Source: Agromyces subbeticus DSM 16689 (GTDB lineage Bacteria; Actinomycetota; Actinomycetes; Actinomycetales; Microbacteriaceae). Taken from it: a stretch of 64,000 bases of DNA. A program made the translations under genes and the position numbers. Under the pieces are notes generated by a model. The model was not told the origin of the DNA and ran no database searches. It saw only the letters and a list, made by a program, of their open reading frames with translations. Each line of letters begins with the position of its first letter. The stretch's first letter is position 1. Shown piece after piece: positions 45,510 through 48,295 of the stretch. The stretch spans positions 682,001 through 746,000 of the forward strand of contig NZ_ATXG01000001.1 of assembly GCF_000421565.1 (NCBI RefSeq), read 5' to 3'.

Positions 45510-45521
45510 TAGGGTCGCTGC
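45510..45521 (+). promoter_or_regulatory. Leaderless promoter of the KAS III-like gene
   Basis: TAGGGT at 45510-45515 is followed by exactly six bases and then ATG 45522. No ribosome site is present. This is the arrangement of actinobacterial leaderless transcripts. Confidence 0.55.
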
Positions 45522-46655
45522 ATGGGTTCGATGGCGACGGCGTATCTCACGGGCTTCGGCGCCTACCTTCCGGGTGACCCGGTCGACAACGACGGCATCG
45601 CGGCGCGGCTCGGCGGCGACGACGCGGTCACCGAGCGCATCCGGCGCCGGGTGCTCGACGCGAACGGAATCCGGCAGCGCCACTACGCGCTCGACGAGCA
45701 CGGCGAACCGACCGAGCTGAACGAAGAGCTCGCCGTCAAGGCGCTGCAGGCGGCGCTCGACGACCGCGGCATTCGAGCCGAAGACCTGCGCATGCTCGCC
45801 TGCGCCACCACGATGGGCGACGTGCTCGTGCCGGGCTTCGCGTCGATGGTGCACGGGCGCCTCGGCGGCGGGCCGATGCAGCTGCTGAGCGCGTCGGGCG
45901 TGTGCGCCTCGAGCCTCGCGGCGCTGGATGCCGCGGTGAGCAAGATCCGGCTCGGAGACCACCCGCGTGCGGCGGTCGTCGGCTCGGAGCTCTCGAGTCG
46001 CAGCCTGCGGCAGCGCCGCTTCGACGGCATCCGCGCCGGCATGGACTCCCACTTCCTGCGCTGGATGCTCTCCGACGGCGCTGGCGCGGCGATCGTCGAG
46101 TTCCAGCCGCATCCGACCAAACCGTCGCTGCGGGTCGACTGGGTGCGCCAGGTCTCTCTCGCGCACGAGCACGACGTGTGCATGCGCTCCGGCATGAGCG
46201 GCGCCGAGCCGAGCGTCGGCCGCACCTGGCAGGACGTCGACATCGCGGATGCCGACGCGGCCGGCATGTTCGTGCTGCGCCAAGACGTGAGCATGCTCGA
46301 CGACCTCGCCGAGGCAGGCTTCCGCCAGTTCGAAGAGCTCGTCGACATCGGGCTCGTCGACGTCTCGCACCTCGACCACGTCGTCTGCCACTACAGCACC
46401 AACGCGTTCCGCGACCTCGCGTTCGACGCGCTGAGCCGCCGCATCCCGAACCTGAACACCGACCGCTGGTACTCGAACCTCGAGACGCGCGGCAACACCG
46501 GGTCGGCGAGCATCTTCATCGCCCTCGAAGAGGCCTGGCGCACCGGCCGCTTCGCGCCAGGCGAGACGGTGCTGCTCGCGGTGCCCGAGTCGGGGCGCTT
46601 CTCATTCGCCTTCGCGCATCTCACCGTCGTGGCCCCGCCCGGGCACGCCTCATGA
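45522..46655 (+). CDS. 3-oxoacyl-ACP synthase III-like condensing enzyme
   Basis: A 377-residue thiolase-fold protein. The catalytic triad of KAS III enzymes is visible: Cys128 (SASGVCASSL), His290 (CHYSTNAF) and Asn325 (RGNTGSAS). The N-terminus (TGFGAYLPGDPVDNDGIAARLG) and the linker IRRRVLDANGIRQRHY are FabH-like, but a long insert (about 195-260) and the divergent sequence place it away from housekeeping FabH, nearer the OleA/secondary-metabolite type. It is followed 64 bases later by the di-iron oxidase gene, suggesting a fatty-acyl-derived product. Confidence 0.85.
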   Translation: MGSMATAYLTGFGAYLPGDPVDNDGIAARLGGDDAVTERIRRRVLDANGIRQRHYALDEHGEPTELNEELAVKALQAALDDRGIRAEDLRMLACATTMGDVLVPGFASMVHGRLGGGPMQLLSASGVCASSLAALDAAVSKIRLGDHPRAAVVGSELSSRSLRQRRFDGIRAGMDSHFLRWMLSDGAGAAIVEFQPHPTKPSLRVDWVRQVSLAHEHDVCMRSGMSGAEPSVGRTWQDVDIADADAAGMFVLRQDVSMLDDLAEAGFRQFEELVDIGLVDVSHLDHVVCHYSTNAFRDLAFDALSRRIPNLNTDRWYSNLETRGNTGSASIFIALEEAWRTGRFAPGETVLLAVPESGRFSFAFAHLTVVAPPGHAS

Positions 46656-46719
46656 CCGCAGCCCGCGCCACATCGGCCCGCACCACCTCACCCAGACGCA
46701 CCACGCAAGGAGCAGCAGC

Positions 46720-47442
46720 ATGACGATCGACAGCAGCACCGCGACATCCGACACCATCAGCACAGCGGATGCCTCGGCGCCCGCCGGCGTCGACATCCTC
46801 GCCGAGCGGCTCGCCGACGTCTGGGTCGAGCTCGAAGAGCGTCTCGACCGGGTGCCCGTGCTCAGCCGACTCGCGGCCGGCACGGTGACCCTGCACGACT
46901 ACCAGCGGCTGCTCTTCAACCTGCGCCAGCAGGTCGTCGACGGCTCGCCGTGGATCTCGCGCGCCGCCTCGAACTTCGACATCGACCACTTCGAGCTGCG
47001 CACGGCGGCCATTCGCCACGCCGAAGAGGAGCACCGCGACTACCTCATGCTCGAGCGCGACTACGTGGCGATCGGCGGCTCGCTCGCCGAGCTGCGCGCC
47101 GGCCGCAAGAACCTCGGCTCCGAGGCGCTGTCGGGCTACATGTTCCACTACGCCGACCAGCCGAATCCCGTCGGGCTGCTCGGGGCCATGTTCATCATCG
47201 AGGGGCTCGGCGCCAAGCGCGCCGCAGGGTGGGCCGCACGATTCCAGGAGGTGCTCGGACTCGCCGACAGCCAGGTGCACTTCATGCGCTACCACCAGGA
47301 TGCCGACAGCGCGCACACCGGCGACCTCGAGGCGATTCTCACCTCGGGCATCATCGACGACGGTGCCGCCGACGAGATCGTGCGCTGCGCGCAGGTCGTC
47401 GCCCGCCTCTACGCCCTGCAGCTGGAAGAGCTGGACCACTGA
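46720..47442 (+). CDS. Haem-oxygenase-like iron-containing oxidase
   Basis: A 240-residue helical protein of the haem-oxygenase-like di-iron oxidase/iron-containing redox enzyme family. Candidate ligands are spread as in that family: HAEEEH (100-105), Glu161 (FIIEG), and His187/His192/Asp196/His199 in VHFMRYHQDADSAH. Known relatives include UndA (fatty-acid decarboxylase giving 1-alkenes) and other N- or C-oxidising enzymes. AAGGAG precedes ATG 46720. The next gene starts one base after its stop. Confidence 0.8.
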   Translation: MTIDSSTATSDTISTADASAPAGVDILAERLADVWVELEERLDRVPVLSRLAAGTVTLHDYQRLLFNLRQQVVDGSPWISRAASNFDIDHFELRTAAIRHAEEEHRDYLMLERDYVAIGGSLAELRAGRKNLGSEALSGYMFHYADQPNPVGLLGAMFIIEGLGAKRAAGWAARFQEVLGLADSQVHFMRYHQDADSAHTGDLEAILTSGIIDDGAADEIVRCAQVVARLYALQLEELDH

Positions 47443-47443
47443 C

Positions 47444-48295
47444 GTGGCGGAGTTCGTTCGCTCCGATCCCAGCATGTGGGAGGCGATCTACGCCGACCCC
47501 TCGGTGCCGCTCGACCGCGCTCTGGTGCGACTGATCATCGACGATCAGCGCCGTCTCTCGCGGCGCTGGGTCTACCCGATCGCCCGCGTGCTCTCGCGGG
47601 TGCTCGTGGCGCTCATCTCGATCGTCAAGCGAGTGCTGCCTTTCCGGTGGATGCCGCTGCGCGTGATGGACGCATTGTGCGTCTGGTTCCTGCGGCGGTT
47701 CGTGTCGCCCGACGCCGTCGAGCTGCTCATTCGGCATTTCGTCGTCGAGACCAACCTCGTCAACTTCATCATCCGCAACACGCCCGTTGCGATCGCGCCC
47801 GTCACGCTCCGACCCGAGAAGCTCGCCGGGCTCGGCGACCATGCCGTCGTCGAGCACGACGTCAACGTCTACGACCTGCTCATCGCCCTCGACGAGGTGC
47901 AGCTGACGCGACCCGAGACGCTCGACTTCACGCAACTCGACATCCCGCCGCTCGACGCCGAACGGGGGCGCCGCCGGTTGCTGCGCCTCGACATCCAGAC
48001 GGCCCTCTGCTTCATGAACATCCCGTTCTCGATGGCGCTCACGGTCGAGGAGTACCGCCGTGCGGTGCACTCCATCCGGTTCGATGACTCGTTCCTCGAG
48101 ATCCTCGCCCTCGTCACCGATGACGACACGTTCCGCCACTGGAAGCTCGCGGGCATGAGCCTCTGGATGGACTCGAACGTCGACGTGCCCCGCATGGTCT
48201 ACCGACACGCGCTCGTGTGCGAGTACGCCCACGCCCGCCTGGTGAAGCTCGCCGGCGGAGCCTATCCGCGCCAGACGAGCGTCGAGTTCGACTGA
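47444..48295 (+). CDS. Membrane-associated protein of unknown function (DUF6999-like)
   Basis: A 283-residue protein; residues about 40-85 carry hydrophobic segments (WVYPIARVLSRVLVALISIVKRVLPF and MDALCVWFLRRFV), the rest is soluble with conserved-looking blocks LLIRHFVVETNLVNFIIRNTP and VVEHDVNVYDLLIALDEV containing many His/Asp/Glu. I associate it loosely with DUF6999, unverified. It is translationally linked to the oxidase (one-base gap), so it probably acts in the same pathway. Convergent with the flavoprotein gene three bases away. Confidence 0.65.
   Translation: MAEFVRSDPSMWEAIYADPSVPLDRALVRLIIDDQRRLSRRWVYPIARVLSRVLVALISIVKRVLPFRWMPLRVMDALCVWFLRRFVSPDAVELLIRHFVVETNLVNFIIRNTPVAIAPVTLRPEKLAGLGDHAVVEHDVNVYDLLIALDEVQLTRPETLDFTQLDIPPLDAERGRRRLLRLDIQTALCFMNIPFSMALTVEEYRRAVHSIRFDDSFLEILALVTDDDTFRHWKLAGMSLWMDSNVDVPRMVYRHALVCEYAHARLVKLAGGAYPRQTSVEFD

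Follow-up and report, generated by a model that had tools for sequence, protein, structure and literature searches.

What small molecule, if any, is made by three adjacent genes of Agromyces subbeticus DSM 16689 is the question raised by this locus, which lies in a window of 64,000 nucleotides (the whole stretch of DNA that was analysed) within a genome of 4.3 Mb. The genes follow one another on the forward strand and encode a KS III-like synthase of 377 amino acids (45522–46655, with an ATG start and a stop at 46655), a haem-oxygenase-like oxidase of 240 amino acids (46720–47442, ATG start), and a protein of 283 amino acids belonging to the DUF6999 family (47444–48295, GTG start). Exactly one base separates the stop of the oxidase gene from the start of the third gene, and an AAGGAG-like sequence at 46706–46711 of the same strand is, as far as its letters tell, the ribosome-binding site of the oxidase gene. 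The three genes apparently form one operon, and the coordinates, reading frames and one-base gap given in a preliminary description of the locus are all borne out by the sequence.

A -10-like hexamer, TAGGGT (45510–45515, forward strand), lies 6 nt upstream of the ATG of the synthase gene. The pattern TANNNT is found at a spacing of 6–7 nt before the synthase start in 38 of 48 relatives, and its chance at a spacing of 4–9 nt is 0.005 (0.5%) per position of the window, so that the leaderless promoter proposed earlier is well supported. Loci of Isoptericola and Pseudactinotalea (L047, L049, L050, and L052) lack TANNNT and have in common GGTGTGG(C/A)TGAATA a few bases upstream of the ATG, perhaps a different type of leaderless promoter.

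The strongest evidence that the three genes act as a cassette is their joint inheritance. Each gene is found in 18 of 60 Agromyces genomes, and the 18 are identical for all three; the other 42 genomes have none of them. A scan for relatives of DUF6999 yielded 49 loci in Agromyces, Microbacterium, Cellulomonas, Demequina, Isoptericola, Pseudactinotalea, Leifsonia, Schumannella, Brachybacterium, and Asanoa, and the synthase and oxidase genes lie upstream of DUF6999, in the same order, in all but two of them. Of these two, one starts at a contig end and the other is a truncated extra copy whose genome holds an intact trio elsewhere. The trio recurs in order across several families of Micrococcales, and it is also found in the same order on a Pseudoalteromonas plasmid, at about 42, 45, and 25% identity for synthase, oxidase, and DUF6999, respectively. 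In at least 20 loci, the oxidase gene begins before the synthase gene has ended, with an overlap of four bases, and in Asanoa the two proteins are fused into one reading frame. The three proteins also agree in their pairwise distances, which correlate with r of 0.69–0.77 when the two most divergent loci are left out. In the wider samples the cassette is rare, with DUF6999 carried by 10 of 299 members of the family and 4 of 396 members of the phylum, and a presence scan, which does not record gene order, found matches to all three protein families in Caulobacter vibrioides. Genes flanking the trio are mostly not conserved between loci, so the trio behaves as a portable unit, and the flank comparison found no fourth gene conserved with it, although short genes could escape the simple ORF calling on which it was based. 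No PADLOC match marked the trio as a defence system. A literature search found neither the combination nor DUF6999 described; “resorcinol” clusters have been reported, uncharacterised, in some Microbacterium genomes.

Several individual loci show features of their own. The synthase of the window is 95–97% identical to those of A. allii-type loci (L048, L092, and L093) and its DUF6999 protein only 79%, while the corresponding values relative to A. ramosus (L013) are 92% and 95%, a discordance suggestive of recombination within the operon, close to where the oxidase and DUF6999 genes meet. In Brachybacterium squillarum (L061, 6311–8549), a synthase without its C-terminus continues in frame as the oxidase, and the DUF6999 protein lacks residues of about 119–178, which would fit a decaying or misassembled copy. 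Finally, Cellulomonas sp. KH9 has a solitary, N-terminally truncated second DUF6999 gene (L056, 8001–8663) in addition to its intact trio at L035.

The synthase is best placed by its sequence near StlD and DarB, ketosynthases that make cyclohexanediones and dialkylresorcinols. Its best NCBIfam model, by far, is the StlD/DarB model NF005293, at 320 bits relative to a curated cut-off of 450 bits, and its product may therefore differ from those of StlD and DarB; relatives from Asanoa and Pseudoalteromonas score 347–372 bits. The nearest solved relative is StlD itself (5gk0, E 2e-64), and the Cys128-His290-Asn325 triad, already recognised as intact in the preliminary description, aligns with that of StlD and is invariant among relatives wherever they cover it. 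In two trees, StlD, the flavodoxin-linked synthases, and those of Bacteroidota cluster together with the trio synthases apart (bootstrap 92–93, SH-aLRT 91–93), in a topology for which the FabH outgroup is too distant to provide a root. The protein is a probable StlD/DarB-type β-ketoacyl synthase. A housekeeping FabH was considered and rejected, as the synthase reaches only 72 bits with TIGR00747 (cut-off 292), a model matched at 312 bits by a separate FabH encoded in the same genome (G000:C18). Two findings had been named beforehand as arguments against a dedicated pathway, namely a trio that is not conserved together and a synthase restricted to housekeeping fatty acid initiation; given the conservation of the trio, all-or-none within the genus, and the separate FabH, neither applies.

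The oxidase matches PF14518 (E 9e-10; 39.1 bits, cut-off 28.9), and its AlphaFold2 model (pLDDT 90) has the seven-helix fold of the haem-oxygenase-like dimetal oxidases (HDOs). The best fold matches by Foldseek and VIA are 3dde, CADD, TenA, heme oxygenase, PqqC, and UndA, with VIA Z values of 25.7 for 3dde, 23.9 for CADD, 19–21 for PqqC and TenA chains, and 19.4 for UndA. The best profile match is likewise Sden_3740 (3dde), at E 1.6e-9; UndA is absent from the profile matches, and the profile search gave no sequence-level match to characterised HDO members in the PDB. A second PF14518 protein of the same genome (L063, C7:14083–14607; 200 bits) is unrelated to that of the trio and weakly similar to BesC.

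The spread of His, Glu, and Asp residues that had earlier been called family-like in the oxidase has held up, as seven residues (H100, E104, D107, E161, H192, D196, and H199) are invariant in 74 trio oxidases. The published dimetal HDO motif, E-H-E-H-(D/E)-H, is shared by about 85% of the sequence groups (PMC11363339). Five of its six positions are filled in the oxidase by E104, E161, H192, D196, and H199, but the canonical His of α-1 is D107 in all 74 proteins, so that the full motif is absent, in a ligand register taken from sequence alignments to 3dde and three HO-like relatives rather than from coordinates. H100, E104, and D107, in the pattern H-x3-E-x2-D, face the same side of their helix, and H100 may substitute as the third His ligand. 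Iron binding with an atypical ligand set is predicted on these grounds, and the deviation from the HDO motif in α-1 makes both the number of metals and the reaction less certain.

The third protein matches PF22523 (DUF6999) at 321.5 bits (cut-off 27), over positions 3–274 of the 275 in the profile. Its model is all-helical (pLDDT 79), and sequence profiles found no match in the PDB, nor did fold comparison give a usable one (best Foldseek E 0.38; VIA Z 3.4). The idea of a second haem-oxygenase-like protein was dismissed, since profile comparison gave it a probability of 1% and the Foldseek matches to HDO chains are noise (E about 3, probability 0.01–0.03). To call it a membrane protein, as had been done at first, was an overstatement. 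Its most hydrophobic 19-residue stretch has a mean Kyte-Doolittle value of 1.89, residues 44–64 form a strongly amphipathic, Arg/Lys-rich helix (moment 0.64), and residues 31–75 hold ten Arg/Lys and two Asp/Glu; an amphipathic and basic helix of this kind suggests peripheral contact with the membrane at most, not a span. H98, E102, H138, D139, D183, E203, H255, and E260 are invariant and are kept even at 25% identity, so the protein looks like an enzyme.

Taken together, these observations are compatible with a self-contained biosynthetic cassette for a fatty-acid-derived small molecule, in which the synthase would act first, the oxidase second, and DUF6999 last, a reading to which we give roughly even chances. 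What the analysis establishes is the order of the genes and their joint inheritance, an intact catalytic triad in the synthase and its kinship with StlD, and the HDO fold of the oxidase; the chemistry is what we infer from them. Judging by its family, the synthase would join two fatty-acid-derived thioesters from primary metabolism, the cassette itself having no carrier protein, and its product would probably be a 2,5-dialkyl-cyclohexane-1,3-dione or a related β-dicarbonyl. From its fold and ligands, the oxidase, as a haem-oxygenase-like non-haem iron enzyme, would then use O2 to aromatise, desaturate, or hydroxylate that product, occupying the place of the flavodoxin-like, DarA-type partner of other DarB systems. 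The weakest step is the third, where our guess is that the lipophilic product would be completed or handled by DUF6999, as a helical enzyme in peripheral contact with the membrane. The position of the synthase below the StlD/DarB cut-off and the departure of the α-1 ligands from the HDO motif both count against this scheme. It is also conceivable, though here we lean somewhat towards doubt, that an O2-dependent HO-like iron enzyme with the H-x3-E-x2-D pattern and DUF6999 have together replaced the DarA-type step, yielding an undescribed class of oxidised, acyl-derived metabolites shared across phyla.

The preliminary description had likewise proposed a short pathway to a fatty-acyl-derived small molecule or hydrocarbon, and of this the dedicated small molecule is well supported while the analogy with OleA and UndA has not stood, as the synthase is nearest to StlD/DarB. 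In such a hydrocarbon pathway, an OleA-like synthase would provide a β-keto acid and an UndA-like oxidase would decarboxylate or cleave it to an alkene or ketone. KS III-type enzymes do include OleA, and the oxidase shares the overall fold of UndA. However, in addition to the placement of the synthase, UndA is absent from the profile matches of the oxidase and comes after Sden_3740 and CADD in the fold comparison, an Asp takes the place of the canonical α-1 His, and the trio has no further conserved companion gene; alkene formation of the UndA type, suggested earlier, now seems quite improbable.

A different fate for the acyl chain is conceivable, in which the synthase would make a chain or β-ketoacyl intermediate that is attached elsewhere, the oxidase would desaturate or hydroxylate it, and DUF6999 would be a transferase acting in membrane lipid modification. 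The amphipathic basic helix of DUF6999 would suit membrane contact, and its invariant residues are enzyme-like, but neither an acyltransferase nor a carrier is conserved nearby and DUF6999 matches no known transferase fold, a missing match being weak evidence; we hold this reading unlikely. Still another doubt concerns the oxidase itself, which could be a metal-free member of its fold, like PqqC or TenA, and catalyse a cyclisation or hydrolysis of the synthase product. PqqC and TenA do match its model almost as well as its best partners, and the canonical α-1 His is missing. Set against this are the invariance in 74 proteins of E104, E161, H192, D196, and H199, together with H100 and D107 from the same side of the helix, and the presence of five of the invariant residues in a BesC-like protein and in two further HO-like proteins, which leave a metal-free oxidase very unlikely.

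If the cassette reading is correct, an easily cloned set of three genes for a new metabolite class would be at hand in common actinobacteria of the soil as well as in a marine gammaproteobacterium, and DUF6999 would gain its first functional context. Moreover, the oxidase would be an HO-like iron enzyme that departs from the standard ligand motif, and would offer an oxidative substitute for DarA. According to the authors of work on FlcD, new chemistries will likely come to light among HDOs whose metal motifs are undetermined or unusual (PMC11363339).

Among known systems, the HDOs UndA, BesC, SznF, CADD, and FlcD share with the trio oxidase the fold and the ligands of α-2 and α-3 (E161; H192-x3-D196-x2-H199), and differ from it in α-1, where the trio oxidase has D107 at the His position and H100 four residues before the Glu. 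Sden_3740 of Shewanella denitrificans, whose function is unassigned, is the best match by both profile and fold, yet it keeps the α-1 His that trio oxidases lack. A further HO-like protein, about 24% identical to the oxidase, is encoded on plasmids of Salinivibrio and Variovorax in a short conserved operon with a “thermostable hemolysin”, an AMP-binding enzyme of the acyl-activating type, and an SDR (L078, 3817–7470; L079, 3828–7508). These operons have other partners, with no StlD/DarB synthase or DUF6999 annotated, and their HO-like protein retains E-x2-H in α-1; the arrangement looks like another, uncharacterised acyl-processing pathway.

The closest parallels are the systems of DarA/DarB, for dialkylresorcinols, and of StlD, for isopropylstilbene. 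Heterologous darB and darA of Chitinophaga gave a dialkylresorcinol (PMC3992019), Pseudomonas mutated in darA or in darB no longer makes its dialkylresorcinol (PMC6403133), and in Azoarcus DarB is annotated as a cyclase and DarA as an aromatase (PMC3949708). A related synthase followed by a flavodoxin-like protein is encoded on a Streptomyces plasmid and in a second actinobacterium; the two flavodoxin-like partners are 47% identical to each other, begin with a flavodoxin-like YSQ(T/S)GQL motif, and matched no family model. This partner is probably DarA. A search that is weak as a negative returned no relative of the Streptomyces partner in the window's genome. Like the trio, the DarA/DarB and StlD systems are cassettes of a few genes that use fatty-acid intermediates and rely on a synthase of the same family with an intact Cys-His-Asn triad; the trio differs in that the place of a DarA-type partner in the cluster is taken by an oxidase with the HDO fold and by DUF6999.
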